DNA of 64,000 nt from Chitinophaga filiformis (GTDB lineage Bacteria; Bacteroidota; Bacteroidia; Chitinophagales; Chitinophagaceae). The DNA lies in contig NZ_FNBN01000010.1 of the NCBI RefSeq assembly GCF_900102545.1, positions 186,001 to 250,000 of the forward strand. The letters run 5' to 3'. Made by a program: the position numbers and the translations under genes. A model generated the notes under the pieces. It saw only the letters and a program-made list of their open reading frames with translations, was not told where the DNA came from and did no database searches. Within the stretch, counting starts at the first letter, position 1. Each line of letters begins with the position of its first letter. This document shows positions 1,928-32,364 of the stretch, piece by piece.

Positions 1928-4372
1928 TCAGTTACTGCGCTGTGCCCTTCTTGTCTCTTCCTCAACGTTGCTGTTCCGGCTCTTCACGGCCTTCACCTCC
2001 TTACGGCCAAAACGGTAAGTAAAGGTTACCCTGACTACACGGGTCTCATTCTTTTGCTTGATAGAATAGTTGACTGCCGGGATAACACTTCTTAAATGCT
2101 GTTCCTGTGTATTCAGGATATCGCTGAGGGCAACTTTGAGGTTAGCTCTTTTCTGTAACAGAGAATAGTTAATGCCCATATCCATATAAAACTGGGGCTT
2201 AAAGAACTCAACGGTGCCATATACAAAGGGCGATTTATAATCAGCCACCAGCTCTGCCTGTATCCGCTTACTGATGACGAAAGAGTTAGCACTATTCACA
2301 AAAAGCCCTTTTTTACCGATATCAAGCGGACTCCCTAATAATTCAGGTGTTTTATACTTCAGGTAAAAGATGGTAATATCATTACTCATTGTCCACCACT
2401 TTGCAATCTGGACCGGTATTCCAAAATTGAGGTTCAGCTCCAGCTCCTTTGCCAGGTTCTGGTTAGTCTGATACAGGATCTTGTTAATAGTATCTGTTAG
2501 CAATACGGGGGTGATCACATCATTGGTCCTGCTTGCAGCAAGAGTAGCAGAATAAGTATCCTTCAACACATAAGACAGCGAGGCCTGATCAGAATACTGT
2601 GGATTCAGGAAAGGATTTCCTTCCCTAAGGGTATACCTGTCCACGAAATAAATAAATGGATTCAGGTCTTCATAATTAGGCCGGTTAATTCTTCTGCCAT
2701 AAGAAAAAGTCAGTTCATGGTCCTTACCCAGCTTCTGTCCGATATACAATGTCGGGAACAGGTTGAGATAGTCCCTGCTCACTACCTTCGACAAGGTGAT
2801 GGAATTGCCTTTAGAATGTGTCTTCTCAACCCTCAGGCCTGCCTGAATTTTGGTATTCTTAAATTCCTTATTGAGGTTAAGATAACCCGCATACACATTC
2901 TCATCATACACAAACCGGTTGCTTCTGTTGGTTGGCGTCCATGCATTATTGACCAGCGAATCTGCGACCAGATTATTATCTGTCCTTACCAGGGCTGCCT
3001 TTACACCCAGTTCCATACGGAGGCCATTGATAAAAGGATGGACATAATCCGCCTTTGCTGAACGCACTTCTATACTGGCAGGCGTTGTATTTTGCAGGAA
3101 GAAAGAATCGATCTTCCGCTTTGACACATATTCTTCAGTATGATTATCATAATGGAACAGGTCTTTGTTATTGAATTTCGAATAATCCAGGTCTACGGTT
3201 AACTCGCGCCCGAGGGAATCGAACCTTGTCTTATAATTGAGATTGAACGCATAATTTCTGAAACGGGATTGTCCGTCAGACAGGTCAGTGATAAGAGTAT
3301 CCCTGGATGCAGGATCACGGAACATAAAAGTAGTGGCGCCACCCTTCGTCTTCGTATTGTTGGCATACCCGGTGAACATAAACCCTACCGTACTTTTGGG
3401 GCTGATACTATAGTCTATACCTGTTTTGAAATTGTTATTCGACAATTCCCTGATCGTTCTGCTGTTCTGTAAAAAATACGTAGTTTCCTCAGCAGTCTCG
3501 TTCGCACGATTTACATTCATATCCCTGTTCCGCTTATTATAGAGATAGTTATAAGTAGCGAAAAAGCTAACCTTTTTATTCCGGTAATTAAAAGAAATAC
3601 CAGTATTGCCTTTATAATAATTACCGTAACCACTTCCCACAATAAGAGAACCACTAACGCCATATGATTTATTCTTCTTCAGTTTAATATTGATAATACC
3701 GGAAGATCCCGTAGCATCATACTTCGCAGAAGGGTTGGTAATAATCTCAACAGACTGGATGTTGCTGCCATCGGTAGCCCTTAACATATTTGCCAGATCG
3801 GAAGGCGCCAGGTAGGTAGACTTACCGTCGATCAGCACATTGACGCCCTGTTTACCTTTCAGGCGGATCAGCCCCTCATTATCCACTGACACGCCGGGAG
3901 CACGACCGATCACTTCCAATGCAGAGTTACCGGCTGCAAGAGGACTATTTTCAACATTCAATATGATCCGGTCCAGCTTCCGCTCTATCAGTGGTTTCTG
4001 TGCGATCACAGTCACTCCGGACAATTCCCGCTGCAATACTGCAGACTTTAATGTCATTCCCGTATGTGTTGGATTTCCTTCCGATATCATCAACACATCA
4101 GAAACAATCTTACGCATGCCGCCTTCCATGACAGCTATATAATAATTACCATAGGGAACATTCTCAAACTGAAAATGCCCTGTTTCATCAGTAACACCAA
4201 TCTTCGAAATAGAAGAATCTTTGGCAAGTAGGAGACTCAGATCAACATTATTACGTTTATTCGCCTTTTCGTCAACCAAAATCCCGGATATTTCACCCCT
4301 GTTAATATTCTGGGCTGTCAGACGGGTAACAAACAGAAAAAACAAACAAAAGAAGGTCAACGATTTGGTCAT
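1928..4372 (-). CDS. TonB-dependent-receptor-like outer membrane beta-barrel protein
   Basis: This is an 814-residue outer-membrane protein. Residues 1-20 form a signal peptide ending LTAQ. Residues about 25-105 are a carboxypeptidase-regulatory-like (transthyretin-type) beta-sandwich with the typical TDETGHFQFENVPYGNYY repeat. Residues about 115-230 are plug-like, containing LEVIGRAPGVSVDNEG, VLIDGKSTYL and SVEIITNPSAKYDATGSSGI. The rest is rich in alternating aromatic and polar strands typical of the Bacteroidota outer-membrane beta-barrel family (OMP_b-brl_3). The last barrel strand, VTFTYRFG, is followed by a charged tail of about 25 residues, which is unusual because barrels normally end at the last strand. 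It follows the hydroxylase gene after 220 nt and a hairpin, so it probably has its own promoter. I infer a role in uptake of the cluster's product or its metal complex, or in resistance to it; the ligand cannot be read from the sequence. Confidence 0.88.
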   Translation of the reverse strand: MTKSLTFFCLFFLFVTRLTAQNINRGEISGILVDEKANKRNNVDLSLLLAKDSSISKIGVTDETGHFQFENVPYGNYYIAVMEGGMRKIVSDVLMISEGNPTHTGMTLKSAVLQRELSGVTVIAQKPLIERKLDRIILNVENSPLAAGNSALEVIGRAPGVSVDNEGLIRLKGKQGVNVLIDGKSTYLAPSDLANMLRATDGSNIQSVEIITNPSAKYDATGSSGIINIKLKKNKSYGVSGSLIVGSGYGNYYKGNTGISFNYRNKKVSFFATYNYLYNKRNRDMNVNRANETAEETTYFLQNSRTIRELSNNNFKTGIDYSISPKSTVGFMFTGYANNTKTKGGATTFMFRDPASRDTLITDLSDGQSRFRNYAFNLNYKTRFDSLGRELTVDLDYSKFNNKDLFHYDNHTEEYVSKRKIDSFFLQNTTPASIEVRSAKADYVHPFINGLRMELGVKAALVRTDNNLVADSLVNNAWTPTNRSNRFVYDENVYAGYLNLNKEFKNTKIQAGLRVEKTHSKGNSITLSKVVSRDYLNLFPTLYIGQKLGKDHELTFSYGRRINRPNYEDLNPFIYFVDRYTLREGNPFLNPQYSDQASLSYVLKDTYSATLAASRTNDVITPVLLTDTINKILYQTNQNLAKELELNLNFGIPVQIAKWWTMSNDITIFYLKYKTPELLGSPLDIGKKGLFVNSANSFVISKRIQAELVADYKSPFVYGTVEFFKPQFYMDMGINYSLLQKRANLKVALSDILNTQEQHLRSVIPAVNYSIKQKNETRVVRVTFTYRFGRKEVKAVKSRNSNVEEETRRAQRSN

Positions 4373-4592: not shown

Positions 4593-6215
4593 TTACAGCG
4601 CTGTAGCGTTTTCTTTCACTTTACTATATAATATCTCCTTTTCGCCAAATAAACGCTCTGCAATAACGCCTACACCAGCGCAATATTCAACGAGTTTATT
4701 GGATTGTACAATCGGGTGTGACTCAGGCGTATATTTTATGCTGCTGATAAATTCCAGCCAGGGTTCCTGTCCCATTGCATATACATACATCTCAGAAGGA
4801 TGGAATATCTCTACCAGCGCCCTGCCCTGTTCAAAATCTGATCCGGCAAAGCGACGTGTCTGATCCATATCCCTGTTCAATTCTTTGGTCATAAGCGGGC
4901 CATATAACCAGGTCAGCGGAGCGCCCTCACATTCCATTCCCAGGAATATTACATCCACGTCGCCTACTGCATCATGAATGTGCTTATATAGTTCTGACGA
5001 TACATTGCAGGAATCTGCCATAAACAACATCGTAAAAGCGCCCAGCTTTACATGGTGGCAGATCTTTGTCTGGATGTTCAGGTCACCATGTTCGCCGATA
5101 AACGGAAGCCCGGTGATACTGCAATCATGGAAACGGATGGTTTGCATATCCTCGATCTCGATCACATTATTAAACCCAATCGAATTGAACATATAGCGAA
5201 GGTTTGGATCCTGCAAGGAACCGCTAGATGTACGGGGTACCACGATGTTGCCGATCTTATGCCTCAATGGCAGCAGGGTTTCAAACAAGATATGGTCCTG
5301 GTGGTTATGAGTGATCAGCACATAATCGATATGCTCAGGGAGATCCATATCAGAGAAGCGGTCTACTTCCTGGGGATAACCATAATAGCTCACCACCGGA
5401 TCGATCAGGATGCTTACATCCTTCGTCTCAACCAGGATGCAGGCGTGCCCGAAATAACGCATCCTTACCTTATTGCCCGTGTAAGGTTTATATGGCTGAG
5501 GAGGTGTATCTGTGAAGAAAGTAGAGAACAATGGCATATCCTCTTCTTTCACACCCAACAACTTCGCAATTTCTGATACAGAGCCAGCCTCGCGCTTCAT
5601 CCTGGACAATTTATCAATCGCACTATCTTTAAAAGGAATATCCAGATGAATTACGCCGGGCTCGTTCAGACGAGGGGTACTTAATACAAAAGGACGCTCG
5701 TCATTATTTGTAATACTGATAGCAATACTCTGCGCTGAAGGCTTATAATATTTACTCTTATACAACAGCGATTCAAAGATCCTATAGGCAGGCTGGTTAT
5801 TGAGGTCGTACACCAGTTCTACATACCCTTTCAGTATTTCAGGGATCTCTCTGTACAATGGTTGCAGGGTAAATCCCTTCGCTTTGGTTATCAGCAATTG
5901 ATCCAACTCCTTCAGGGCATCTGAAAGCTCCACCAGTTCTTTGTGTTCAGTTAGTGTCCTATCGCGTAATGCCTTCACTTCGTCCACTCTTCCACCACCC
6001 AGATCCATGAACGGGCCCCCACGCATTTTAGGGTTCTTCACGGCAGCCGCATGTATCTGAGGCGCCTGTATATACGAGTTCATGATCTTAAGATGCCTGC
6101 CGGTAATGTTCATGGCAGCTGTTGCTGGCGAAATCAAATGGCTCCAGGCATACCAGCGGTCAAACAGGGGTTCCAGGATCACATTTGGCAACAAATACAT
6201 TGGATTCTCATTCAT
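4593..6215 (-). CDS. CmlA-like di-iron beta-hydroxylase (metallo-beta-lactamase fold), NRPS tailoring enzyme
   Basis: A 540-residue protein with an N-terminal domain (1-245, including GRHLKIMNSYIQAP and YVELVYDLNNQPAYR) joined to a metallo-beta-lactamase-fold domain (250-540). Visible metal-ligand candidates are H303-N-H305-Q-D307-H308, E375 in GEHGDL, D401 in FMADSC, E428 in GMECEG and H472 in FHPSE. The length and two-domain layout match CmlA, the di-iron monooxygenase that beta-hydroxylates p-aminophenylalanine while it is bound to a carrier domain in chloramphenicol biosynthesis. The candidate ligands fall, as I recall the CmlA structure, at nearly the same positions. Plain MBL hydrolases lack this N-terminal domain. 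By analogy it would hydroxylate the beta-carbon of a carrier-bound amino acid; the two Phe modules are the natural candidates, but that is inference. It starts 34 nt after the exporter gene and is the last gene of the apparent operon. Confidence 0.82.
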   Translation of the reverse strand: MNENPMYLLPNVILEPLFDRWYAWSHLISPATAAMNITGRHLKIMNSYIQAPQIHAAAVKNPKMRGGPFMDLGGGRVDEVKALRDRTLTEHKELVELSDALKELDQLLITKAKGFTLQPLYREIPEILKGYVELVYDLNNQPAYRIFESLLYKSKYYKPSAQSIAISITNNDERPFVLSTPRLNEPGVIHLDIPFKDSAIDKLSRMKREAGSVSEIAKLLGVKEEDMPLFSTFFTDTPPQPYKPYTGNKVRMRYFGHACILVETKDVSILIDPVVSYYGYPQEVDRFSDMDLPEHIDYVLITHNHQDHILFETLLPLRHKIGNIVVPRTSSGSLQDPNLRYMFNSIGFNNVIEIEDMQTIRFHDCSITGLPFIGEHGDLNIQTKICHHVKLGAFTMLFMADSCNVSSELYKHIHDAVGDVDVIFLGMECEGAPLTWLYGPLMTKELNRDMDQTRRFAGSDFEQGRALVEIFHPSEMYVYAMGQEPWLEFISSIKYTPESHPIVQSNKLVEYCAGVGVIAERLFGEKEILYSKVKENATAL

Positions 6216-6249: not shown

Positions 6250-7911
6250 TTAAATGGTTTGTAACAATGGTTCTTCCCTGATGATCTGTATTTCTGTTAC
6301 CTTCCCGTAATCAAAACGGACAAGGCGGTTACAACAGTGGTAATATTGATCATCATGGGTGATGGCGATGACTGTTTTCCCTTTACGCTGCAGCTCGGGC
6401 AATAACTGATCGTAAAAGAACCTCCTGTAAGCAGGGTCCTGGTCCGCCGCCCATTCGTCCAGTACCAGCACAGGCTTGTCTTCCAGTAGTGCCATGATCA
6501 GTGCCAGTCTTTTCTGTTGTCCTTTGGATAAATGTGGGCTGATCGTATTATTTTCAAACCGGGCTTTTTCACTCAGGTCAAGCTGTCGTAATAAGATCTG
6601 CAGGAACTGGTTTTCCGGACGTATATCATAGTCATTATAATTCTCTGTAAATAGATAAGGGCTGGCAAATACAGCTGCGATAAGCTGTCTGGTAGCTGCA
6701 CTATCGCCAGCAGGTAAAAGCGCTCCGTTCAGATAAATGCTACCTGCATGTGGTGCATATAGGCCAGTGAGGATGTTGACAAAAGTGGTCTTTCCACTAC
6801 CATTCCCGCCTTTGATAAAAACGATCTCTCCCCTTTGAATATCAAGGTTCAAAGGCCCCAGGCCAAAGGAGACATCACTTTTTGCATCCTTATAGGCATA
6901 CGTGACGTTACGGAAAGAAATAGAGGAGAATTCTTTTTGTCCCTGTATCATGCCTTCTTCTGCCCATGCATTATCCGGCAACTGATTATTAACGATCCGG
7001 TTAAACTCTGTCAACCTTTTCAAGGCTATCCGCACATTCGTATAAGTGGGTATCAGGGTGACGAGTATCGCTACCGGACCTATCATGTACAGGATAGTGA
7101 TAAGAAAAGCGCTGATCAGTTTCGCGTCTGTTTTGACTACCAGGGGAATGGCAAACAGTATTACACCTATTACAATGTACCAGCTATAGGTACCTATCAG
7201 CTCATTGGTGGCATACCTGATGCTGGACTTTTTAGTGAGTGCCCTGGCTTCAGAACGGTTCTTTAAAAAGAACCGGGAATAAATGTTCCTTGTCCTGATA
7301 ACATCGGTTTTGATCTCCTTAAACCCCATTAACAGATCGCCCAGGTAACGATAATAATGGTTCTGTAAACTACGAACCTCATTCAGGTCTTTCTCGATCT
7401 TCCTGTTCCTGATCAGATAAAATATAAGTAGGGACACCATTAATCCCATGATAAGTAATGCCCCCGCCCATGAAATATAAAACAGGTATACAAAACAACA
7501 GCACATCGTAATGGCTGCATTAATAGCATTCATTGATACTTCAGGAAGGTTCACTAGTGTACGTACATCATTTACTGCCGTGATGATCCGTTCATTCCCC
7601 AGCTTTACAACATCAGGATAAGCGGCACGCTGTACCTTTTGCAGGATATTCAGCTCAAAGTCAAAATTAACCTGTGTAGTAAGTTTGATCATCTGTACCT
7701 GAAAGACCCTGCTACAGACCGCAGACAAAAGGACGAGCAAAAGGAAACCTGCCCATTCATATTGCTGGAATGCAAAAGTATGACTACCACTGATTGCGTT
7801 ATTGATGAGCAACAGTAATCCTATATTCAATAAAGCGTTGATGATTCCCAGCAATGCGATAGAAATATAGAAGAACTTGGATCGCTTGAAAAGCAACTTA
7901 AAAAACTCCAT
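6250..7911 (-). CDS. Cyclic peptide export ABC transporter (PvdE/SyrD type), fused permease-ATPase
   Basis: A 553-residue half-transporter. About six membrane segments lie within residues 12-300 (for example 15-38, 53-68, 130-150, 151-167, 243-260 and 268-295). The ATPase domain spans about 328-545. Walker A is GGNGSGKTT (368-376), the ABC signature LSKGQQKR (461-468), Walker B VLVLDEW (481-487), and H519 is the switch histidine in ITHDD. The usual Q-loop glutamine is absent (VFASPYLF), which I recall as normal for the SyrD/PvdE cyclic-peptide exporter family. These proteins move nonribosomal peptides or their precursors across the inner membrane to the periplasm. It sits 20 nt after the thioesterase gene and 34 nt before the hydroxylase, so it is very likely cotranscribed. 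Proposed role: secretion of the finished peptide. The family call is strong. Confidence 0.92.
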   Translation of the reverse strand: MEFFKLLFKRSKFFYISIALLGIINALLNIGLLLLINNAISGSHTFAFQQYEWAGFLLLVLLSAVCSRVFQVQMIKLTTQVNFDFELNILQKVQRAAYPDVVKLGNERIITAVNDVRTLVNLPEVSMNAINAAITMCCCFVYLFYISWAGALLIMGLMVSLLIFYLIRNRKIEKDLNEVRSLQNHYYRYLGDLLMGFKEIKTDVIRTRNIYSRFFLKNRSEARALTKKSSIRYATNELIGTYSWYIVIGVILFAIPLVVKTDAKLISAFLITILYMIGPVAILVTLIPTYTNVRIALKRLTEFNRIVNNQLPDNAWAEEGMIQGQKEFSSISFRNVTYAYKDAKSDVSFGLGPLNLDIQRGEIVFIKGGNGSGKTTFVNILTGLYAPHAGSIYLNGALLPAGDSAATRQLIAAVFASPYLFTENYNDYDIRPENQFLQILLRQLDLSEKARFENNTISPHLSKGQQKRLALIMALLEDKPVLVLDEWAADQDPAYRRFFYDQLLPELQRKGKTVIAITHDDQYYHCCNRLVRFDYGKVTEIQIIREEPLLQTI

Positions 7912-7931: not shown

Positions 7932-8633
7932 TTAAATCTCCGAAAGCACTATTCCCAGTTCATGCGTGATCTGTCTCATGATCTCCCGCTCATGCTGAAA
8001 AATGAAAAAATGATTGCCTGGCAGTTTTCTGATCTTTACAGCTGCTGTTGTTTCCTGCTTCCAGCCTTCCAGGTCATCATCTGTCATGTTTTCTTCTGTA
8101 CCCACTATTACTGAAATCGGAACAGACAGCGGGGCTACCGGGTTATACACAAATGTTTCCACTGCTTTAAAATCGGACCTGAGGATCGGTTCAAAATATT
8201 CCATAAATGTGCGGTCCTTGACTATTCCATCCGGTAAGCCACCCAGGTCTTCGATTTTTTTCCAGAATTCGTCTGCGGGCAACTGATGGGTAGTCCTGTC
8301 TTTTTTTAGTGTAACAGGTGCACGGCAACCTGTAAGAAAGAGATGACGGGGTGGATGGTAGCCCTCCTGTTGAATGCGATGCGCTACCAGATAGACCAGC
8401 AAGGCTCCCATACTATGTCCATATAAAGAATAGCTCTTATTCAGATCACTTTTTATCTGCCGCATAATATCTTCTACCATTAAATGAAGGTCATCTATGA
8501 GAGGTTCCATGATCCTGGCACCTCTCCCCGGCAATTCTAATGGTACGAGGTGCACACCGGGAGGCACGTATGGCTGATATCCTCTGAAGGAATGTTTACT
8601 TCCCCCTGCAAACGGGAAACAAAAAATGGTCAT
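7932..8633 (-). CDS. Type II thioesterase (alpha/beta hydrolase), NRPS editing or release
   Basis: A 233-residue stand-alone thioesterase beginning MTIFCFPFAGG, the usual N-terminus of GrsT/SrfTEII-type enzymes. I chose the ATG at 8633, 13 nt after the stop of the last NRPS. The frame stays open upstream to another start at 8765, but that would add 44 residues lying inside the NRPS gene that match nothing in the family. The nucleophile is S74 in YGHSMGA and the catalytic histidine is H208 in GNHFF. The expected acid lies near VGTEENMTDD, where the common Asp position is Glu/Asn, so the acid is unclear. Type II enzymes clear misloaded or stalled carrier domains. As no thioesterase domain is fused to any NRPS seen here, this protein might also help release the product, although the terminal condensation domain is an alternative. 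Confidence 0.9.
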   Translation of the reverse strand: MTIFCFPFAGGSKHSFRGYQPYVPPGVHLVPLELPGRGARIMEPLIDDLHLMVEDIMRQIKSDLNKSYSLYGHSMGALLVYLVAHRIQQEGYHPPRHLFLTGCRAPVTLKKDRTTHQLPADEFWKKIEDLGGLPDGIVKDRTFMEYFEPILRSDFKAVETFVYNPVAPLSVPISVIVGTEENMTDDDLEGWKQETTAAVKIRKLPGNHFFIFQHEREIMRQITHELGIVLSEI

Positions 8634-8646
8634 GCTTATAAAGTGT

Positions 8647-11600
8647 TCAGGTAAGTGGAATAATAACTGTGTCGGGGTGATGTACCAGCTGCTGTAAGAG
8701 GATAATATATCCTTCCGTAAAAGTCTGAATATAGCTGCTGTCATACTTTTCCGGCCAGTATTCACAATTGATCACCAGCCCGTTCTTAAACAGGTCGCAT
8801 TTCATATTCAGCTCAAACTGCGGAGCGGCATTGCCTGTATGCTGTCCTATCTTTTCAGCAGGGAATTCATTATTCGTTGTCAGGTCCAGGTTCCTCAGAT
8901 GCAGCAATACTTTACCGATCGCAGATAGTGGCAGGTCCAGCTTGTCCAGTAGCTGCTCGAAGGGATAGAGATGGTCACCTGACTCCTGTGCCACCGCCCT
9001 TGTCTTATTCACCAGCTCTCCAAAGGTGATGCCTGGCGTGATGGCTACAGGTATCAGCATGATCTCAACCAGGTATCCCATCATGCCTGTCAGTTCTTCA
9101 CGTTGGCGGTAAGATACAGGAGCGCCGATCACCAGTTGTTGTTCGTTGGTAAAACGCGCTAACCAGGCAAATAAAGCGGCAGTCAATACATTGAAATATC
9201 CACTGTTTAAAGATGCCGCTAATGTAGTCAGCGTCTGCCAGTCTGCAGCTGGCAGTAAGGAAGTATACATACTGCCTGTAAACGGCCGGGCAGTGCTTAC
9301 CTTCCCGAAGATGAAGTTCTTTTGTACAGTGGTCAGCGGTACAAAATGCTGGTCCATTGTTGTCTCCATCTCCTTACGATACCCTCTATGGCTATTGATA
9401 TAAGGGTACAATTGTTGTTGCCAGTATGATGTCAACGCCTCTCCTTCTTCCTGTAAGCGTTTATTTTGCCATGCGCAATAATCCTTCAATTGTATCCTGC
9501 CTTTTTCCTGCCTGATCTGTATACCCTGCTCCAACTGCTCATAGATGGTATTAAAATCATCTGACAGTATCTGCAATGATCCGCCGTCGCCAATGGCATG
9601 CTGCACAGATAATATGATCGTGTATAATGCTTCACTCATCCTTACCAGTGCTATCTTCCACAGGTATGGCCGGTGGAGGTCAAATGGATGATCGCGATAT
9701 TCAGCAAACAGCTCATCCAGCAGCGCATCCCTGTTTTCCATATTGACAAAATCAAGGTACGTAACCGGCAAAGGGTCAGCAGCAGCATGCGCCACCTGGT
9801 AAAGATCGCCATCCTCAAAAACGAAGCTTGTCCGCAAAGCTTCATGCCTGCGCATCAATTCCCGTACTGTTTCTGCAAACAATCCAGCATCTATGTGCTG
9901 TAATGTGAAAGACCCGGTTACATTATAGGGTCTGGGCGACCATGCAAACTGGATCCTGGTATAAATCTTCTTCTGGCGGTTATCGGCCATATACCTGGAT
10001 TGCTCTTCAACGGGAGCAATCGCATCTGCTAACCTGTTCTTTCCATGCTGTCTGATAACGACAGCCAGCTGGCGGATGGTTGGAGCCATAAACACATCCA
10101 TCAGTTTGAGCTTTACTTTGAATTGACGCTCTACCAGCGACAGCATCCTGAAAGCCTTGAGAGAATGGCCGCCGATCAGGAAGAAGTTATCATTGATCCC
10201 GAAGCCATCATGCTTTAATATCTCCTTCCACATCTGCTGAAGTATCTGCACGACCTCGTCTTTCGTATCCAGTGTATCATTAAACGTTTTCAATTTCGCA
10301 GGAGCGGTCTTTTTTAAAGACGCCCTGACATTATCACCTCCTTTTCCAAGATTAACTAAAGTGCCGTCTGTTTTCCAGTATGCCAGCTCGCCGGTAGGCA
10401 TCCATTGTTCACTATCGGCAGCCCTGGCATATAGATTACCTCTTACCCCCATTGGAAGTAACTGCATATATCCGTCTGCTACCCTGTGACTATTTGCAAC
10501 AGCTGCCGCCTCCTCAAAGGCGGCGATCCTTTGCTGTTCATCCTGCATTAATATCGGGAATGCATATAAAGGCACGGAAGGATCTGCAATAACAGCCTGC
10601 AGCAGATTTTCAAAGTGACGAACAAAGGCTTCCATCCATTCAGCCCTGAACAGATCAGCATCATACTGGAATTCCGCCCTGACACCTACTGCTTCTTCTG
10701 TAAAATTCACCAGCAGGTCTACCTGGCTTACGTCTGCACCTACATGGTAAGACTGTATTTCAACACCTTGTTCTACCGGTTCCTGCTGCAAAGTGATATC
10801 CGCATTCTGCAATACAACCATTACATCGTACAGGGGATTCTGGTTGACCTTTCTTTCTATATTCAGCCCTTCCAGTATTTGTTCCACCGGACATACCTGG
10901 TGCTCAAATGCATCCATGGTACTTTCCTTCACTTTCTGTAACAGGTCCAGGAAACTCTCATTTCCCGAAAACTTTGTACGGATCAGCACATTATGGACAA
11001 AAAGGCCAATCAGCTCTTCAGTATCAGGATGATCCCTGCCTGCTACCGGTGTACCTATCACCATATCTTCCCTGCCTGTATATCTGAAAAGCAGTGCCTT
11101 CATGACAGACAACAGCGTCATAAACAGAGAAGCGCCATTTTTAAGAGCCAGCTGGTGGATGCGGGTAGTAGTGGGCTTGTCGATCAGTATTGCAACAGTT
11201 CTGCCACGATACAATCTCCGCTCCCCCCTCTCGATATCTGATAAAAAGTTGAGTGGTGGCGGAAGTTCCCGGAAACAATTCATCCAGTATTCCATATGCC
11301 GGCCCATCTTATCCAGGGAGATCTGCTCATAAAGCCAGGCGATATAATCTCTATACTGTATTGGTAATGGCTTTCGCTTTACCATCCCTTTTTCCTTTAA
11401 TAGGGAATAATTACCCAGCAACTCTGACATGAGTATTTCAAGTGACCATCCATCCGAAATGATATGATGAATGTTCATCAAAAAGAGGAATCGCGTATCA
11501 GTCACCTGCCATAAAGCTGCCGTGATCAATGGATCACTATCCAGGCGGAAAGGTTGCATAGCCGCTTCTTTTGCGATCATTTGCAGATAGGCATCCTTTT

Positions 11601-14388
11601 CCGGAATGTCATGCCGCAGATCTTCAAAATGCATTTGATTAGTACATGCCTCAACCGGGCACACCTGCTGCCAGGGCTCTCCGTCTATGATCACAATATT
11701 CGTACGCAGGGTTTCATGACGCTCTACCACCATGCGAAAAGCCTTTGCAAATATGACCGGATCAATATCATCCACAAAAACAGCTCGTGGAATGTTAAAA
11801 GAGCTCAATTGCCCATCATTCAGATAATCTTCGATCCAGATAGCTTTCTGGGATGGCGATAATTCGTATAATGTAGTTTCAGCTACCTGTGTTATCGGCA
11901 TATACTCTTTTCTCTCCAGGTTGCGCAACAACGAGGCAAGTGTTCTGATAGTAGGATGGTCGAATACATGCCTGATCGTAATGTCCAGGTGAAGGCGTTT
12001 GTATACCTGGTAAACCAAACGCGTCGCTTTTAGAGAATCTCCACCGATGGCAAAGAAATTGTCAAGTACGCCAATTGTCTTCTTTTTCAGCACATCCTGC
12101 CAGATCTCCAGCAACGTATGTTCCTGCGGTGTAGCAGGCGGCGCGAATGAGTTATCCTGCCCATTTATCTGCAAAGGATCGGGTAATGCCTTCCGATCAA
12201 TCTTACCATTGGGTGTAAGCGGGAAACGTTGCAGCACAATGATTGTGGCCGGGATCATAAACTCCGGCAGCATCGCCGACAACTGCATCCTGAGCAATGA
12301 CGATTCCAGCAGGTCCTCCCCGGTAACATAAGCCACCAGAAATTGCTTGCCTTCCTCATCTTTACAGGCAATCACCAGCGCCACCTTTACACCTTCACAT
12401 TTACTTAAGGCGGCTTCTACCTCCCCCAGTTCGATCCGGTATCCCCTGATCTTCACCTGGTGATCCTTTCTTCCCATATAGGTGATATTCCCATCCTCTT
12501 CCCACCTACCAAGATCTCCTGTTCTGTACATCCGCTTTCCAGGATAAAAAGGGTTCTGTACAAACTTTTCTTTCGTCAGTGCTTCACGGAACAGATACCC
12601 GTCTGCAAGACCATCTCCGGAAATGCATATCTCCCCAACCACACCATGTGGCAACAAACGGCCATGGTCGTCCAGCATATAAATATCCGTATTAGCGACA
12701 GGTCTTCCGATCGAGATGCTTTTATCTGAAGAGCGAAGCCTGTATACAGTGGTATATGTAGTGTCTTCGGAAGGCCCGTACAGATTGCGGACCTCCAGGC
12801 GATCACAGTCCAGTTTCTCTTTAATGAATAAGGGCAATGGTTCTCCGGCCATATTAACAGCCACTACCGTATCAAAAGCAACATCTGCATGCAGCAATTC
12901 AACGATCACAGAAGGTACAGTATTCAGCAGTATCTTATCATCCTGTTGCAAATAATCGGGTATCTGCAGCGAGGAATCGAGTATACGTACCGTTTTTCCT
13001 GCCGCCAGTGTAAAGAACAGCTCAAAGACAGAGAGATCAAAACAATAGGAAGTACCCGCAAAGGTGATCTCAAATGGTGTGCTGCCAAATTCATGCAAAG
13101 CCCATTCAATAAATACAGCCGCATTATAATGCGTGATCATGACACCTTTCGGCTCGCCGGTACTACCGGAAGTATAAATAATGTATGCCAGGTTATCCGG
13201 CATTATATGAGAAGTGCCTGCAGATGGTGTACGTGCGCGGATAATATCTTTTAGCACTTCAAGAGATTGTACTTTACAGGAAAGAGCTGGCCTGCCTGCT
13301 GTTTCCCGCTCTCCGGCAATAAGCAGCACGGGCCTGGAATCGTTAAGGATGTAATTGACACGCTGAGCAGGATAATCCGGATCAATAGGTACATAACATG
13401 CGCCCGATCTTAAGATACCCAATAGTATCACGGGCATCCATTCTGAACGCTTCATCAGCACGCCTACCCTATCCCCTGCTTTTACGGCATGCTCTTCTCT
13501 CAGCCAGCATGCTACATTATCTGAATAATGATCCAGTTCTTCGTTTGTCAAATGCTGCTCCTCATATACAATTGCCACCTTGTGCGGATACATCCGCAAT
13601 TGCTTTATGATAAAGTCCGGAATGTTATTAAAGGCTGGCTGCACAGTGCTTGCATGTGCCATTGCCAGCAAATAGGCTGTTTCTTCCGGCCGTAATGCGA
13701 TCAGGTTATTTAATGTTTCCCGGGGATCAGACAACATCTTCTCCAGCAGGAACACCCATTGCTGCAGAAACCCCTGCATAAACCTGTCTGTATGGCCGTT
13801 ATCACCCGATACTTCAATATGAAAACCTTCATCCTCTCTATATACCCTGAAAATATTAGATACACCTGTGATGTCTGCCTGATGATTAAAGGCATCCAGC
13901 ACCAATCCGATGTTCCATATTTTAAGGGCATCTGCAGCATGCTGCCGGGTGGTCTGACCCAGCACATCCTGCATATTTTCTACTTTGAAATCCAACGCAC
14001 TGTAAAGCTCTTCTTTACACATGGTCAACAGGTCGCTTAATTTACTCTCAGGCGCGGCGACGAGCTTCAACAGACATAAGCCATCCACATCACCCGACTC
14101 CTCTTCCAGTATACAGGAAGAAGTGGATACGATCAGCGTTTCCTGCGACATATAACACCTGCCGGTCACATACAATCCTGCCAGCATCACCAGAAATATG
14201 GCGGCAGGATCTTTTCTTGATACTTTATCAATTTGCAGGGACAGCTCCGGGCTTAGCTGGCAATGATAAGTTTTTACGGGGCCATTGCCCTGTTTTCCTC
14301 CGGTAAAAACAACCCCGGCTTCTTCCAGTTCAGAGAATTTCGAAAGCCAGTATTCCCTGGCCTGTTCAATTTGCAATTGTAATTCCAT
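8647..14388 (-). CDS. NRPS G: half-C, A (Ala-like), T, C, vestigial A, T, terminal C
   Basis: A 1913-residue final synthetase. Order: C-terminal lobe only of a condensation domain (about 1-235); A domain (about 255-755) with code DLFNNALTYK, which I recall as an Ala code; T domain with IGGDSLKA (about 770-835); full C domain with HHIISDG (about 850-1280); a short A-domain remnant (about 1300-1370) retaining PTGELAYWKTDGT, recognisable as core A6-A8 but without ATP- or substrate-binding motifs; T domain with IGGHSLKA (about 1375-1445); and a terminal C domain with QHAIGDG (Q1596, catalytic-position H1597). No thioesterase domain is attached, so release may use the terminal C domain, the neighbouring thioesterase, or both. 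The last T domain must be loaded by another A domain, or the chain simply passes through it. The half-C is redundant with the complete C domain that ends protein F. The gene starts 15 nt after the methyltransferase-like gene. Confidence 0.93.
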   Translation of the reverse strand: MELQLQIEQAREYWLSKFSELEEAGVVFTGGKQGNGPVKTYHCQLSPELSLQIDKVSRKDPAAIFLVMLAGLYVTGRCYMSQETLIVSTSSCILEEESGDVDGLCLLKLVAAPESKLSDLLTMCKEELYSALDFKVENMQDVLGQTTRQHAADALKIWNIGLVLDAFNHQADITGVSNIFRVYREDEGFHIEVSGDNGHTDRFMQGFLQQWVFLLEKMLSDPRETLNNLIALRPEETAYLLAMAHASTVQPAFNNIPDFIIKQLRMYPHKVAIVYEEQHLTNEELDHYSDNVACWLREEHAVKAGDRVGVLMKRSEWMPVILLGILRSGACYVPIDPDYPAQRVNYILNDSRPVLLIAGERETAGRPALSCKVQSLEVLKDIIRARTPSAGTSHIMPDNLAYIIYTSGSTGEPKGVMITHYNAAVFIEWALHEFGSTPFEITFAGTSYCFDLSVFELFFTLAAGKTVRILDSSLQIPDYLQQDDKILLNTVPSVIVELLHADVAFDTVVAVNMAGEPLPLFIKEKLDCDRLEVRNLYGPSEDTTYTTVYRLRSSDKSISIGRPVANTDIYMLDDHGRLLPHGVVGEICISGDGLADGYLFREALTKEKFVQNPFYPGKRMYRTGDLGRWEEDGNITYMGRKDHQVKIRGYRIELGEVEAALSKCEGVKVALVIACKDEEGKQFLVAYVTGEDLLESSLLRMQLSAMLPEFMIPATIIVLQRFPLTPNGKIDRKALPDPLQINGQDNSFAPPATPQEHTLLEIWQDVLKKKTIGVLDNFFAIGGDSLKATRLVYQVYKRLHLDITIRHVFDHPTIRTLASLLRNLERKEYMPITQVAETTLYELSPSQKAIWIEDYLNDGQLSSFNIPRAVFVDDIDPVIFAKAFRMVVERHETLRTNIVIIDGEPWQQVCPVEACTNQMHFEDLRHDIPEKDAYLQMIAKEAAMQPFRLDSDPLITAALWQVTDTRFLFLMNIHHIISDGWSLEILMSELLGNYSLLKEKGMVKRKPLPIQYRDYIAWLYEQISLDKMGRHMEYWMNCFRELPPPLNFLSDIERGERRLYRGRTVAILIDKPTTTRIHQLALKNGASLFMTLLSVMKALLFRYTGREDMVIGTPVAGRDHPDTEELIGLFVHNVLIRTKFSGNESFLDLLQKVKESTMDAFEHQVCPVEQILEGLNIERKVNQNPLYDVMVVLQNADITLQQEPVEQGVEIQSYHVGADVSQVDLLVNFTEEAVGVRAEFQYDADLFRAEWMEAFVRHFENLLQAVIADPSVPLYAFPILMQDEQQRIAAFEEAAAVANSHRVADGYMQLLPMGVRGNLYARAADSEQWMPTGELAYWKTDGTLVNLGKGGDNVRASLKKTAPAKLKTFNDTLDTKDEVVQILQQMWKEILKHDGFGINDNFFLIGGHSLKAFRMLSLVERQFKVKLKLMDVFMAPTIRQLAVVIRQHGKNRLADAIAPVEEQSRYMADNRQKKIYTRIQFAWSPRPYNVTGSFTLQHIDAGLFAETVRELMRRHEALRTSFVFEDGDLYQVAHAAADPLPVTYLDFVNMENRDALLDELFAEYRDHPFDLHRPYLWKIALVRMSEALYTIILSVQHAIGDGGSLQILSDDFNTIYEQLEQGIQIRQEKGRIQLKDYCAWQNKRLQEEGEALTSYWQQQLYPYINSHRGYRKEMETTMDQHFVPLTTVQKNFIFGKVSTARPFTGSMYTSLLPAADWQTLTTLAASLNSGYFNVLTAALFAWLARFTNEQQLVIGAPVSYRQREELTGMMGYLVEIMLIPVAITPGITFGELVNKTRAVAQESGDHLYPFEQLLDKLDLPLSAIGKVLLHLRNLDLTTNNEFPAEKIGQHTGNAAPQFELNMKCDLFKNGLVINCEYWPEKYDSSYIQTFTEGYIILLQQLVHHPDTVIIPLT
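10279..10491 (-). other. Vestigial adenylation domain inside NRPS G
   Basis: Between the C domain and second T domain of NRPS G, about 70 residues (about 1300-1370) remain where an A domain of about 500 residues should be. MGVRGNLY matches the GxxGEL/CV stretch, PTGELAYWKTDGTLVNLG matches core YRTGDLxxWxxDGxxxxxG, and KGGDNVRASL matches the GRxDxQVKIRG region. Motifs A1-A5, including the YTSGSTG loop, and the A10 lysine segment are gone. The reading frame is intact, so this is an in-frame internal deletion rather than a frameshift. Confidence 0.72.
13684..14388 (-). other. Orphan C-terminal lobe of a condensation domain at the start of NRPS G
   Basis: Residues 1-235 of NRPS G start at REYWLSKFSEL, the point where the second lobe of a normal C domain begins, and run to its usual end (FLQQWVFLLEKML) before the A domain. 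The first lobe and its HHxxxDG motif are absent. The preceding gene, the methyltransferase-like ORF, does not supply them. A complete C domain ends protein F, so chemistry need not depend on this lobe. It may be a relic, a structural cap for the A domain, or a platform for a partner enzyme. Confidence 0.7.
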
Positions 14389-14403: not shown

Positions 14404-15312
14404 TCAAAAGTTGGAGAAAATGGTCATTGAGAAGAAAGAGTGCTCGTTAACAGTCGTAACCGGCACCTGGAAAGACTCCCTCTTGCTGAAGAAGGCAGAT
14501 TTCCCTACACATTCATAATAGACTTCAAGGAAGATCAATACTATCCTCACCTGATGTTGCTTTGCAAAGCTTTCCAGGCGATTGAAAAAGGCAACAGCTA
14601 TATTTTCGTCAAAAGGAAGCCAGAAGTATAATACCATGTCTTTTTCCGGAAAATCAAATTCGAGCGCATTAACACATTGTGAGGTAATATCACGGCATTG
14701 CATTTCCGGAGGCTGATAGACTGCTATATTAGACAAGGCGATGTTATGCAGATGCGCGGATAGTTCTATTCCGATGATCCTGTGAAACGGATGATCTGCT
14801 GCCTGCAGGAGGACTCTTCCCATTCCGCTGCCAACGTCTATAAATACAAAGTCACTAAAACGAACACCATATTTTGCCAGCTTTGCCAGCGCTATCTTTA
14901 CTGCTACAACGGGGCTTGGGTTATAACGATTGGCCCCTTCATATCTTTCAACACTGACTTCTTCGGGCAGCTCATACTGGCTTAAGATAGCACTGGTAAG
15001 GGTCTGGTACTTCCCGTCAAAATCATCCCTGTTCTCCCGTTCCATCATTTTCCGATCGATGGGATTATTGATCCTTCCCAACAGGAAACCTATCAGCCAT
15101 TCATAATCCACGGATGCAGTCTGCATATAGTGACCAATGATCCTTTGGAGATTACTACCTATGACCGGGTCCATACTACTGACCGCCTTATTGCAGGTAT
15201 CCAGTAATAATGAGATCCTGTCTGCAGGCGCTGTTATTTCATAATAGCGATCATGCACCTTTTCCAGTGCTGTCAGCAAACTGAGGTGAATATCTCTTTC
15301 CGTATTTATCAT
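14404..15312 (-). CDS. Class I SAM-dependent methyltransferase-like protein within the NRPS operon
   Basis: A 302-residue protein with a helical N-terminal part (about 1-125) and a Rossmann-like domain. Motif I is VFIDVGSGMGRVLL (156-169), the acidic residue ending strand 2 is E183 in IGIELS, and a motif IV-like DMVLYFWLPFDEN lies near 224-236. This is a class I SAM methyltransferase fold of the large uncharacterised group that also resembles DOT1-type proteins; the methyl acceptor cannot be told. It lies 13 nt after NRPS F and 15 nt before NRPS G, in the middle of a module split between those proteins, so its product very likely acts on the growing peptide or on the residue loaded by NRPS G. 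N-, O- or C-methylation are all possible, and loss of activity cannot be excluded. Confidence 0.78.
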   Translation of the reverse strand: MINTERDIHLSLLTALEKVHDRYYEITAPADRISLLLDTCNKAVSSMDPVIGSNLQRIIGHYMQTASVDYEWLIGFLLGRINNPIDRKMMERENRDDFDGKYQTLTSAILSQYELPEEVSVERYEGANRYNPSPVVAVKIALAKLAKYGVRFSDFVFIDVGSGMGRVLLQAADHPFHRIIGIELSAHLHNIALSNIAVYQPPEMQCRDITSQCVNALEFDFPEKDMVLYFWLPFDENIAVAFFNRLESFAKQHQVRIVLIFLEVYYECVGKSAFFSKRESFQVPVTTVNEHSFFSMTIFSNF

Positions 15313-15325
15313 AACATTATAAGCA

Positions 15326-18300
15326 TTAATTGAGGTCGAAAAACAGGTCCTTCCTTGCTTTTTCCCTGATAGCTTTTCCCATGATGGATTGCTTCAGTGA
15401 GAGTAAAGTCTCATGGCCGGCTTCAGGGAGAGTCAACATTATCTTCTTCAGATATTCCTGCATCAAATGGATACGGGACTCATTAAACAGCGTAGAGGCA
15501 TACTCGATGGACACAGTAATACCCTGCGCATCTTTCGTGAAGATGAAGGAGATATCATATTTACTGACAGCATACCCGGCATCCAGTTCTGTTAATACCA
15601 GTTCCTGTCCCTGTCCGTCTGGTATGTCGTTGCTATGTTGTAATGTCACCATTACATCAAATACAGGAGAATGCCCCGGAGGCACAGGCGCGGCAAGATC
15701 TTCCACCAGTTGATCAAACGGGTATAACTGGTAACGGAAACTATCCAGCACTGCTTTCTTTACATCAGCCAGCAACTGATCAAAAGTATTCTCCGCGGCT
15801 CCGCCCACCCGAACAGGCAGGATATTGACCATGAACCCGAGTACATGCTCGAGGTCAATATGATTTCTTCCTGCCACCGGGGAACCTGTTACGATATCAG
15901 TTTGTCCGGTATAAAAATATAAGAGCAGTTGTACGATCGCCCTTACTCCCATAAACATGGTAATATCTTTTTCCTTTAACCAGGCATCTACTGCGCGGCT
16001 AGCATCCTCTTCCAGCCGGAAAGACATCCATTTTCCTTCAGAAGAACGCTCTGCCGGACGCGGATGGTCCAAAGGTAATTGCAGGCGGGGTACACCTGTT
16101 TTGAAGACGTCCATCCAGAATTTCCGGTGTTCCTTTAACAGGGCTCCTCCCAGCTGTTTATTTTGCCAGGCTGCATACTCTTTATATTGTACGCGAAGCG
16201 GTGCATGACTTGTCTCCATACCATTACAGTAAGCAGTATAAGCATCCAGCAGCTCGCGTACAAAGATGTCCATAGACCAGCCATCCATGATGATGTGATG
16301 GAAGTTTAATACTAGTACATGATCTTCTTTTCCCAACTGCAGGATCTTAAAATAGAAGAGCGGTCCTTCTTCCATATCGAATACCCGGCTTCCCTCGCGG
16401 GAAGCGATCGCCTTAGCTGTTTTCAGTGGCTGGTCACTATCAGACAGGTCCTCAAAATGCGTCACTGGCTGGAAGTATCCCGGAGCCTGGACCACTTGTA
16501 CAGGTTCATTTTCCACCTTGTGGATAACCGTACGCAGCACTTCATGTCTTTTCACCATATAAGCAAATGCCTTTTCGAGGGCAAACCTGTTCACGGCGCT
16601 TGCAATACGATAAGCATGGGGAATGTTGTAGGCAGTACTGTCTTTCTCCAGCTGTTGTAATATCCAAAGCCTTTTCTGGGCGTGTGAGATGGGATAGTAT
16701 GGCTGCTCTGGTAATACGTTGATATTCTCAAATCCCCCCTGCTGCATTTTGCGAATAAATGCTATCTGTTGTTTTAACACAGGATGCTCAAATACATCTT
16801 TCAGGTCCATATAAATGGAAAACTGCTTTTGCACCCTCGATATCAATTGGATCACTTTTAAAGAGTGCCCCCCCATATGGAAAAAATGCTGCTGACTGCT
16901 GACAACTGGAACACCCAGGATCTCACTCCAGATGGCAGCCAGTTCCTTTTCATCCTGATCTGTTATTGTTTCCTGCTGACCGGTGGGCTGACCTGTTTCC
17001 GGCAGCAGCTTTTTATCCAGCTTTCCATTATTGTTCAGGGGTATCTTTTCGATCCAGGTGAAGAAGGAAGGGATCATATAATCAGGCAGCACAGCAGCCA
17101 GTTCCTCTCTTATTAAAAATTCGCTGACAGGTTCTGGCGCCACATAATAAGCTTTCAACACGGTAGTACCTGTAGTGTGGTCCTTATCTGTAATAACCAC
17201 CGCATCCTGAAGTATCTCCAGGGCTTTCAGCTTATTAATGACCTCTCCCACTTCTACCCGGTGGCCACGGATCTTTACCTGTGCATCCTTTCGTCCCAGG
17301 AATTCAAGTTGATGATCTTCATTCCATCTGCCATAATCTCCTGTACGATATAGTTTTTCACCATCTTCAAAAGGAGATGGTACAAAGCGGACATCCGTTA
17401 ATTCCTGGTTATACAGATATCCTTTTGAAATTCCTTTTCCGCTCACGCATATTTCTCCCGGCATACCTTCAGGTACCAGGCGGAGATGATTATCGAGGAT
17501 ATATATGCTGGTGTTAAGCAAAGCATTGCCTATTGGTACGATGTGGCTCACCTTCTTTCCTGCCGCAAGCTCATAGGCGCTGATACACACGGAATATTCG
17601 GAAGGACCGTAGGCATTAAAATACCTGAATTGTACAGCGTACTTCATTACGTCTTCCGGATAGGCTTCCTCTCCTGCCGTGATCAGAATGCGTAAAGTTG
17701 TGGCCTCGTGGATCGCTATGCTTTTTACATATACCGGCGGTAATGTAGCGATGGTCACCTGCTGCTGGTTAATATATCTGATAAATTCAACGGCGTTGTT
17801 GATCTTATCTTTTGTGATCAGCTCCAACGTAGCGCCGGATAACAATGCCATAGTGATCTCCCACACGGAAGCATCAAAAGATAATGAAGCAAATTGCAGG
17901 ATATGATCATCCGGGCCCGGGCTAAACAATTCCATTTGTGACCTGAACATGTTTACCTGCCCTTCATGGGTGATCATGACGCCATTAGGCTTGCCGGTAG
18001 AACCGGAAGTATAAATGATATAAGAAAGATCCTGAGGAGCACTTACCACAGGAAGATTATCGGTCTTCGCTTCCCATTCATTCAGCTCTATATCAATAGC
18101 TACCAGTGACCGATGATAATATTCCATCACCGTGAATAATGCTGAAGAATCAGTGATCAACAGGTTTACATCTGTATGCGCTAATATATCGCGGATACGT
18201 TGTGCAGGATAGCCCACGTCAATGGGAACATATACACCTCCGGCTTTCAGTATGGCCAGTATACTGATAACAGACCATTCAGACCGTTCTATTATCAAAG

Positions 18301-19855
18301 CTACCAGGTCTCCTTTTTTCAATCCATATTTATGTTGTAAGGTATGCGCCGCAATATTTGCCTTTTCATTTAGCTCGCTGTATGTCAGTACACCTTTATC
18401 CCATCTTACTGCAGGCTGCGCAGGTACTTTAGTCACCATACTTTCAAACATGGTAACAAAGGTGGCGGGTTCCGGAACCATACTCAGGGTACCTTTCCCT
18501 ATTCGCAGTAATTCCGCCTTTTCTTTGTCCGTCAATATTTCCAATTGTCCGGTATGCACATCCGGCTCATGACTAATCTGTTCAAGGATAGTAGTGAAAT
18601 GAGCAGCCAGTTTTTTGATATATGGAGCGGGATAGGCAAAACTGTTATACCGGAATTTAAACATCAACGCTTTTCCCGGTACGATCACCAGGCTCAGATC
18701 ATAATTGGAATGCTCATAGATATTGATATTTTCCACCTGGAAGGAATGAGCATCTGTGGCCTGTTGCTGTAATACGATCCCTTCAATCTGTTCTTCAATG
18801 GGATAGTTTTCAAAAACGAGCAGATGATCTATCAGCTGGTTACCCATTGGGGTTAATGACTGAATATCTGCCAGCTGGCTAAAGTGATAGTTAATGCCTG
18901 CTACGCCATCACCATGCACCTGCGCTGCGATTGCCGCAAAGGTATCATTGCTGTCAAATTTTACCCGTACAGGTATCGCATTGATAAATAGGCCTATCAT
19001 GGTCTCAATTCCGGCAATGCCTGGAGGTCTGCCGGAAACGATCGTACCAAAGACGACATCCCCGGTATTATTATACCTGCCCAGCAATACACCCCAGGCA
19101 GTCTGTATCAACGCGTTCAATGTCACGCCTAATTTCCCGGTATATTGTACCAGGCGATCTGTTAGTTGCCTATCCAGTATTACGATCTCCTCCTGCTGTA
19201 AAAAACCTGGCTGTTTTCCCTGTTTCTTTAGCGGCGTGGCTGTTTCAAAACCTTCCAGATATTGATTCCAGTATTCCAGGGCCCGTTGACTGTTCTGCTC
19301 TTCCAACCATTGTATATACCGTCTGTATGGAGTGACCGGCGGCAGGTTATGTCTGCTCTTTCCCAGCAAACTATGATAAATAGCCAGCAATTCATGGATC
19401 AGGATACTCATACACCATCCATCCATCAGGATATGATGAAAGCTCCAGATCATCTCATATTGCTGGTCCTGCAGTCTTAACAAGGCTACCCTCATCAGCA
19501 CATCCTTCCTGAGATCAAATCCTCTGGCCTGGTCTAACTGCCTGAAATGACGAATATGGTCCAGCTGTTCTTCATGAGATAATGATCGGAGGTCTTCCTG
19601 GTTAAACTCGATCTGCCTTTCACGTAACACCAGCTGAACGGGCTTCTTGAGATCATCGTAGTTAAAAGCAGTACGCAGGATATCGTGCCGCCTGAATAGC
19701 TCATTAAAAGCTTCTTCTACCAGGGCCGGCTCCAGATAGCCTTCCAGGTTGTAGGAAAATTGTAACAGGTATACGCTGGCAGCCTCTTCGCGAAGGCTGT
19801 GGTATAAGATACCGTTTTGTAACGGTGACAATGGATATACATCAACGATGCTCAT
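15326..19855 (-). CDS. NRPS F: C (DCL), A (Phe), T, C
   Basis: A 1509-residue synthetase. The first C domain (about 1-430, HHILMDG) starts directly at MSIVDVYPLSPLQNGILYH. This is the DCL type expected after the epimerisation domain that ends protein E, and its first residues look like an acceptor COM docking segment. The A domain (about 455-955) has YTSGSTGKPNG and code DAWTIAAVCK, essentially the GrsA/TycA Phe code, so L-Phe is predicted. The T domain carries HMGGHSLK (about 970-1035). A second C domain (about 1050-1480, HHIIMDG) ends the protein with a short charged tail. That C domain has no A domain of its own; it must work with the A domain of NRPS G, with the methyltransferase gene lying between. 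The gene lies 26 nt after NRPS E. Confidence 0.95.
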   Translation of the reverse strand: MSIVDVYPLSPLQNGILYHSLREEAASVYLLQFSYNLEGYLEPALVEEAFNELFRRHDILRTAFNYDDLKKPVQLVLRERQIEFNQEDLRSLSHEEQLDHIRHFRQLDQARGFDLRKDVLMRVALLRLQDQQYEMIWSFHHILMDGWCMSILIHELLAIYHSLLGKSRHNLPPVTPYRRYIQWLEEQNSQRALEYWNQYLEGFETATPLKKQGKQPGFLQQEEIVILDRQLTDRLVQYTGKLGVTLNALIQTAWGVLLGRYNNTGDVVFGTIVSGRPPGIAGIETMIGLFINAIPVRVKFDSNDTFAAIAAQVHGDGVAGINYHFSQLADIQSLTPMGNQLIDHLLVFENYPIEEQIEGIVLQQQATDAHSFQVENINIYEHSNYDLSLVIVPGKALMFKFRYNSFAYPAPYIKKLAAHFTTILEQISHEPDVHTGQLEILTDKEKAELLRIGKGTLSMVPEPATFVTMFESMVTKVPAQPAVRWDKGVLTYSELNEKANIAAHTLQHKYGLKKGDLVALIIERSEWSVISILAILKAGGVYVPIDVGYPAQRIRDILAHTDVNLLITDSSALFTVMEYYHRSLVAIDIELNEWEAKTDNLPVVSAPQDLSYIIYTSGSTGKPNGVMITHEGQVNMFRSQMELFSPGPDDHILQFASLSFDASVWEITMALLSGATLELITKDKINNAVEFIRYINQQQVTIATLPPVYVKSIAIHEATTLRILITAGEEAYPEDVMKYAVQFRYFNAYGPSEYSVCISAYELAAGKKVSHIVPIGNALLNTSIYILDNHLRLVPEGMPGEICVSGKGISKGYLYNQELTDVRFVPSPFEDGEKLYRTGDYGRWNEDHQLEFLGRKDAQVKIRGHRVEVGEVINKLKALEILQDAVVITDKDHTTGTTVLKAYYVAPEPVSEFLIREELAAVLPDYMIPSFFTWIEKIPLNNNGKLDKKLLPETGQPTGQQETITDQDEKELAAIWSEILGVPVVSSQQHFFHMGGHSLKVIQLISRVQKQFSIYMDLKDVFEHPVLKQQIAFIRKMQQGGFENINVLPEQPYYPISHAQKRLWILQQLEKDSTAYNIPHAYRIASAVNRFALEKAFAYMVKRHEVLRTVIHKVENEPVQVVQAPGYFQPVTHFEDLSDSDQPLKTAKAIASREGSRVFDMEEGPLFYFKILQLGKEDHVLVLNFHHIIMDGWSMDIFVRELLDAYTAYCNGMETSHAPLRVQYKEYAAWQNKQLGGALLKEHRKFWMDVFKTGVPRLQLPLDHPRPAERSSEGKWMSFRLEEDASRAVDAWLKEKDITMFMGVRAIVQLLLYFYTGQTDIVTGSPVAGRNHIDLEHVLGFMVNILPVRVGGAAENTFDQLLADVKKAVLDSFRYQLYPFDQLVEDLAAPVPPGHSPVFDVMVTLQHSNDIPDGQGQELVLTELDAGYAVSKYDISFIFTKDAQGITVSIEYASTLFNESRIHLMQEYLKKIMLTLPEAGHETLLSLKQSIMGKAIREKARKDLFFDLN

Positions 19856-32325: not shown

Positions 32326-32364
32326 CAATAATACTTTTAAATGTTTTGTATCAGATAATGTTGG

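Follow-up and report, generated by a model that had tools for sequence, protein, structure and literature searches.

A predicted CmlA/FrsH-family di-iron beta-hydroxylase in a lipopeptide assembly-line cluster of Chitinophaga filiformis

In lipopeptide antibiotics, beta-hydroxy residues can serve as iron ligands, introduce bends into the ring and act as attachment points for cross-links. CmlA (PDB 4jo0, 5kik and 5kil) acts on L-p-aminophenylalanine in the chloramphenicol pathway, and FrsH (PDB 8a90) is the enzyme for Leu in FR900359 clusters, those of a plant symbiont and of Chromobacterium vaccinii; FrsH is reported to act on Leu-loaded FrsA and to accept Ile as well (PMC7794379). For two further CmlA-like enzymes that work with NRPSs, targets have been proposed: Phe for KasD of the kasumigamide pathway (PMC5061366) and Val for CrpA of Pedobacter, where deletion of crpA abolishes cryopeptins (PMC12181424). 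3-OH-Val is reported in (iso)pedopeptins (PMC7979671, PMC7947920). The most elaborate pattern is that of the chitinopeptins, which carry three beta-OH-Asp, one beta-OH-Phe and one beta-OH-Ile; these hydroxylations have been assigned to a CmlA-like metallo-beta-lactamase (MBL) gene and a separate thioester reductase-domain gene (PMC9248904). Whether such enzymes read the side chain or the carrier, once known, would make products predictable and the enzymes usable on other assembly lines. A CmlA-type gene is present in 42 of 79 Chitinophaga genomes, with six copies in one of them.

We analyzed a 64,000-nucleotide stretch of the Chitinophaga filiformis genome (hereafter, the window) that contains most of one such assembly line (Table 1). 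The 540-residue protein with a CmlA-type N-terminal domain that the earlier note on this DNA described is indeed encoded there: a Pfam profile search finds a complete PF18456 (CmlA_N) domain at residues 7 to 238 (E = 1.2e-95, 320 bits), followed by an MBL-type catalytic part (PF12706/PF13483, metallo-beta-lactamase superfamily). Its top relatives of solved structure by sequence are FrsH (480 bits, 42% identity) and CmlA (418 bits, ~38% identity), both of which also share its metal-site residues; FrsH resembles it further in being linked to an NRPS. A structure model of the hydroxylase, predicted from a 44-row alignment (pLDDT 87, pTM 0.90), matches FrsH with a TM score of 0.94 and CmlA with 0.89 but reaches only ~0.3 to 0.4 against plain MBL hydrolases (Foldseek). 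The genome of the source strain has a single full-length copy of this enzyme type.

Table 1. Features of the window, in window coordinates. Substrate names given with A-domain codes are those that we presume from the codes.
Feature	Coordinates	Strand	Details
Outer-membrane beta-barrel protein adjoining the hydroxylase	1928..4372	-	63% to C. qingshengii counterpart
CmlA/FrsH-family di-iron amino-acid beta-hydroxylase (predicted)	4593..6215	-	540 aa, CmlA_N + MBL-type domain
Cyclic-peptide ABC exporter	6250..7911	-	TIGR01194 "cyclic peptide export", 367 bits, cut-off 286
Type II thioesterase	7932..8765	-	PF00975, E = 1.9e-38
NRPS A17 (Ala-type code)-T-C-T-C (degenerate)	8647..14388	-	
Weak methyltransferase-like protein	14404..15312	-	52% to C. 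qingshengii counterpart
NRPS C-A16 (DAWTIAAVC, Phe)-T-C	15326..19855	-	L-Phe, candidate substrate
NRPS C-A13 (DIWQICADD)-T-C-A14 (DLTKIGHIG, Asp)-T-E-C-A15 (DAWTIAAVC, Phe)-T-E	19882..32328	-	
NRPS C-like (without HHxxxDG)-A10 (DLTKVGHIG, Asp)-T-E-C-A11 (DLTKIGEVG, Asn)-T-C-A12 (DGDFIGVVY)-T	32365..43059	-	
TauD (Fe/2-oxoglutarate) domain, end of C-A9-T-C protein	43082..44107	-	PF02668, E = 3.4e-45
NRPS C-A7 (DAFLFGAVV, aromatic-type)-T-C-A8 (DAFWLGGTF, Val)-T	48886..55386	-	Candidate substrates
NRPS A4-T-C-A5-T-C-A6 (DVGEVCSID, Orn)-T	55432..63996	-	Frame runs on to 64251, past the window

In an alignment of 85 rows (81 proteins from 80 loci, one of which has two copies, plus the Chitinophaga qingshengii orthologue, CmlA, FrsH and the window protein), H303, H305, D307 and H308 of the HNHQDH motif (residues 303 to 308), E375, H376, D401 and E428 are invariant. 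The HxHxDH, Glu, Asp and Glu metal-site residues of the window protein align with those of CmlA, for which an E377D variant is named in the title of one PDB entry, and we take H303, H305, D307, H308, E375, D401 and E428 to be the predicted metal site. The ligand list of the earlier note stands for the HNHQDH motif, E375, D401 and E428 (85/85 rows). It also included H472, whose column is unconserved (H in 17/85 rows and N in 44/85; CmlA has E there, FrsH G); therefore, this one of the listed ligands is wrong. Because of the CmlA_N domain, the FrsH and CmlA matches, the TM scores and the invariant residues, we regard as sound the prediction that the open reading frame encodes a real, well-conserved CmlA/FrsH-type enzyme with the metal site of the family. 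It adds a member to an already known enzyme family that is common among relatives.

The genes form a minus-strand run in which NRPS genes are followed by the type II thioesterase, the exporter and, as the last, the hydroxylase, with gaps of 20 to 34 bp or overlaps. The exporter stop lies 34 bp from the hydroxylase gene, a spacing from which we infer that the two are cotranscribed. The cluster extends beyond the window, to ~85.4 kb in window coordinates, and has 17 A domains by motif; epimerization (E) domains are found in modules 10, 14 and 15. Outside the codes named in Table 1, we take A1 (DTESIGTVC) and A2 (DVESIGTVC) to be Lys-like, A3 (DAQDIGVVN) to be Gln-like, A9 (DIWEMSADD) and A13 to specify Dab/Dap, A17 (DLFNNALTY) to specify Ala and, doubtfully, A12 to specify an aliphatic residue. 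The codes of A4 and A5 are DAKHSGLIN and DVSSLALIY.

The same cluster is found in C. qingshengii, split between two contigs (the end of one and the start of another; C27 and C29 of genome G437), and keeps the visible module order, the carbamoyltransferase, aminotransferase, Cupin_8 and TauD genes, the exporter and the hydroxylase, the last in the same thioesterase-exporter-hydroxylase order; it differs in being without the last NRPS gene (Ala...T-C) of the window cluster. The hydroxylase is the best conserved of the shared cluster proteins: it is 86% identical between the two species, compared with 50 to 66% for the others (exporter, 66%; outer-membrane protein, 63%; matching NRPS proteins, 50 to 59%). 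In a tree of the family, the window and C. qingshengii proteins pair with each other (support 100), Agaribacillus comes next (89) and the branches leading to CmlA and FrsH are long.

CmlA-type relatives number at least 456 in a scan of named genomes, from which near records of the window's own genome may be missing. Among the best 80 of these, all loci are of Bacteroidota by titles and tree (61 to 70% identity), A or C domains lie within 10 kb at 72 of the 80 loci, a type II thioesterase lies within 3 kb on the same strand at 45 and the exporter at 30. Across the phylum the gene is rare, with 4 of 395 evenly drawn genomes above the cut-off.

The window cluster combines two mechanistically unrelated predicted hydroxylases, as the earlier note had recognized: TauD (PF02668) differs from the CmlA-type enzyme in fold and chemistry. 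The TauD-bearing C-A9-T-C protein directly precedes the C-like domain without HHxxxDG and the Asp module A10, an arrangement that recurs in C. qingshengii and C. rupis. Such C-like "interface" domains accompany Asp beta-hydroxylases. The families IBH_Asp and TBH_Asp are named in PMC12971057, the accessible part of which is without interface-domain detail. It is reasonable, from this placement ahead of an Asp-coded module, that TauD is aimed at Asp10, and the earlier note's view on this point is retained. A Cupin_8/JmjC-type protein is encoded in the same gene run just past the window (64262 to 65149 in window coordinates, E = 3.9e-35) and is 67% identical in C. qingshengii; at 5 of the 80 loci (best 80 of at least 456 relatives), a relative of this protein is encoded within 3 kb of a CmlA-type gene. 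The cluster may have in it a third iron oxygenase, and therefore the line may use three iron-oxygenase families. Two more TauD genes of the source genome lie outside the cluster (contig C11, 393319 to 412893).

Clusters that combine both hydroxylase chemistries had been called uncommon, a view that the relatives do not support. TauD relatives (E <= 1e-30) are present in 32 of the 68 genomes that hold 79 of the 80 loci (the genome of locus L018 was left out), and 20 of the 68 have a TauD relative and a CmlA-type gene on one contig at most 60 kb apart, a nearness that proves neither a single cluster nor action on Asp. Because contigs are broken, 20/68 is a lower bound, and the pairing is therefore not rare in the phylum. 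We found no publication joining CmlA, TauD and nonribosomal within a partial coverage of the literature, which says little.

The chitinopeptin-type clusters are the closest comparison within the genus. Their CmlA-like genes (C. oryziterrae, locus L042, and three further genomes, G522, G479 and G539) belong, like that of the window, to lipopeptide NRPS clusters, and the proteins are ~66% identical to the window protein but form a separate clade. The C. oryziterrae cluster reads Dap-Val(MT)-Thr-x-Asp-Phe-Ile/Val-Ser-Lys-Dap-Leu-Asp-Leu-Asp-Ile-TE, its TE and MT being read from the sequence of stretches without domain assignment, and the other three read like it; G490 carries a longer relative, and the stretch examined in G521 has no NRPS domains. 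The window cluster does not match the chitinopeptin module order (Dap-NMeVal-Thr-...-Asp-Phe-...-Asp-Leu-Asp-Ile-TE) and differs from these clusters in having TauD, the Cupin_8/JmjC protein and a carbamoyltransferase and no TE that we could find. The modules of all four clusters end in Asp-Leu-Asp-Ile; in PMC9248904, by contrast, L-Leu is placed at position 13 of 14.

TauD is absent from the chitinopeptin-type clusters; where these genomes have TauD or P450 genes, the genes are on a different contig or at a distance of more than 50 kb (G521 left out), and ten open reading frames neighboring the C. oryziterrae cluster include no oxygenase. By exclusion, the CmlA-like enzyme likely makes all five chitinopeptin hydroxyls, those on Asp included, although enzymes encoded elsewhere may contribute and the published structures are of products of C. 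eiseniae and C. flava, whereas the clusters read here are those of C. oryziterrae, G522, G479 and G539. Thus, the CmlA-type family probably hydroxylates Asp too. The earlier note had reasoned that, with TauD acting on Asp, the CmlA-type enzyme is free for other residues. Since the four clusters, whose type of product contains beta-OH-Asp, have a CmlA-like enzyme as the only oxygenase found in the cluster, this exclusion argument is weak.

To look for substrate clues, we compared A-domain codes near CmlA genes with those of NRPS stretches that served as controls, drawn from ten of the genomes in this set. No enrichment of a code class survives correction for 16 classes: Asn codes make up 19/141 near CmlA genes versus 4/79 in controls (P = 0.065), and Ser and Dab/Dap codes are depleted (uncorrected P = 0.008 and 0.02). 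Phe-like codes stand at 12/141 versus 5/79; Phe, which the earlier note had named with an aliphatic residue as the most plausible target, has precedent in chitinopeptin and kasumigamide but shows no enrichment in the codes.

Carrier domains were compared in the four orthologous chitinopeptin-type clusters by setting the five types of module that presumably undergo hydroxylation against the ten others. At two positions past the active serine, G or S and D or E, respectively, are present in 20/20 T domains of the former and 0/40 of the latter; of the 3,003 ways to pick five modules, 4 do equally well, the true one counted, as do 4 of 252 when modules with an E domain are set aside. The mark occurs in 0 of 18 T domains of the window and in 3 of 157 near the CmlA genes of other relatives, a survey to which 15 of the 80 loci contributed no usable T domain and from which those at the edges of open reading frames were omitted. 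Two carriers, one in G490 and one in C. qingshengii, were unreadable. Because the mark is not general and is absent from the window, we rejected it as a predictor of substrate; it may be a docking mark confined to the chitinopeptin-type clade. Among the 11 comparable T domains, conservation after the active serine is highest in modules 14, 7 and 15 (84, 78 and 78%, versus 53 to 69% in the others), which is a hint only, because E domains, too, constrain modules 14 and 15.

The C domains were profiled after leaving out those of ~330 aa or less, and every T-donor C domain of the window comes out as LCL. The one that follows A7 sits beside the DCL group in a quick tree but is called LCL by cross-validated profiles (-95 and -92 in the two species), among the weakest of the T-donor cases (median, -244). 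Although module 7 has no E domain, this C domain, which takes residue 7 as donor, has the weakest LCL score of all T-donor C domains in the window.

We propose that the hydroxylase is, very probably, a di-iron monooxygenase of the CmlA/FrsH family that is dedicated to the assembly line of this lipopeptide; sequence and modeled structure show its family, fold, conserved metal-site residues, location beside the NRPS genes and conservation with the cluster in a second species. Family, fold and NRPS linkage likewise support the earlier note's assignment of a CmlA-family di-iron beta-hydroxylase serving this NRPS, as a predicted activity. A zinc hydrolase or a housekeeping MBL-fold protein carried in the operon would agree with the MBL-superfamily Pfam matches but is scarcely credible against the full CmlA_N domain, the fold match to FrsH and CmlA and the NRPS linkage. 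The predicted monooxygenase would bind aminoacyl-phosphopantetheinyl carrier domains in trans, activate O2 at its di-iron site and hydroxylate the beta carbon before condensation; less certainly, its targets may be picked by the carrier module and not by the side chain alone. We see an even chance that the targets include at least one L-aromatic residue, either Phe16 or the aromatic-type residue 7. Further targets could be Val8, residue 12, Asn11 and Asp14, with the fused TauD domain presumably serving Asp10. Val, Ile, Asn and Asp are possible targets as residue types, and several targets, including non-aromatic ones, have a probability of about one third.

How the work is shared with TauD can be read in several ways. 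Under a strict division of labor, TauD would act on Asp, and the CmlA-type enzyme only on a residue with an aromatic or aliphatic side chain, Phe being the likeliest, a plausible arrangement to which we give somewhat less than an even chance. The position of TauD directly ahead of A10 and the two Phe modules kept in C. qingshengii favor it, as do the proposal for KasD (PMC5061366) and the beta-OH-Phe of chitinopeptins (PMC9248904); it sits poorly with chitinopeptin-type clusters that give beta-OH-Asp without an in-cluster TauD and with the lack of Phe enrichment near CmlA genes; a further point against it is the epimerization domain that follows one of the two Phe modules. More tentatively, the enzyme may act on several unrelated residues, Asp included, chosen by carrier or module. 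The chitinopeptins, in which beta-OH groups sit on five residues belonging to three kinds (PMC9248904), provide the precedent: in the clusters examined, a single CmlA-like gene has neither TauD nor P450 genes nearby. But the window enzyme is just 66% identical to theirs and of a different clade, and hydroxylases may be encoded elsewhere in those genomes. In its full form, a single carrier-reading di-iron enzyme would beta-hydroxylate several unrelated residues including Asp, alongside TauD and Cupin_8/JmjC enzymes, with the choice of module written in the carriers; we hold this to be unlikely, and, if true, three iron-oxygenase families decorate one lipopeptide of ~17 residues. Decidedly more doubtful still is a route in which the enzyme hydroxylates Val8 or residue 12 on the way to a dehydro-residue, following the proposal made for CrpA and the cryopeptins (PMC12181424). 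The Val code at A8 and the 3-OH-Val described for (iso)pedopeptins are consistent with such a route; against it, we found no dehydration-type C domain, and the T-donor C domains of the window score as LCL.

In the last NRPS of the window, which ends A-T-C-T-C, the final C domain is degenerate and we found no TE domain; the C. qingshengii line likewise ends in a degenerate C domain. Upstream in the cluster, at 81156 to 85388 in window coordinates, are a NodU-type carbamoyltransferase gene and SbnA/SbnB-like diaminopropionate genes, and therefore the peptide may bear a carbamoyl group and have Dap among its residues.
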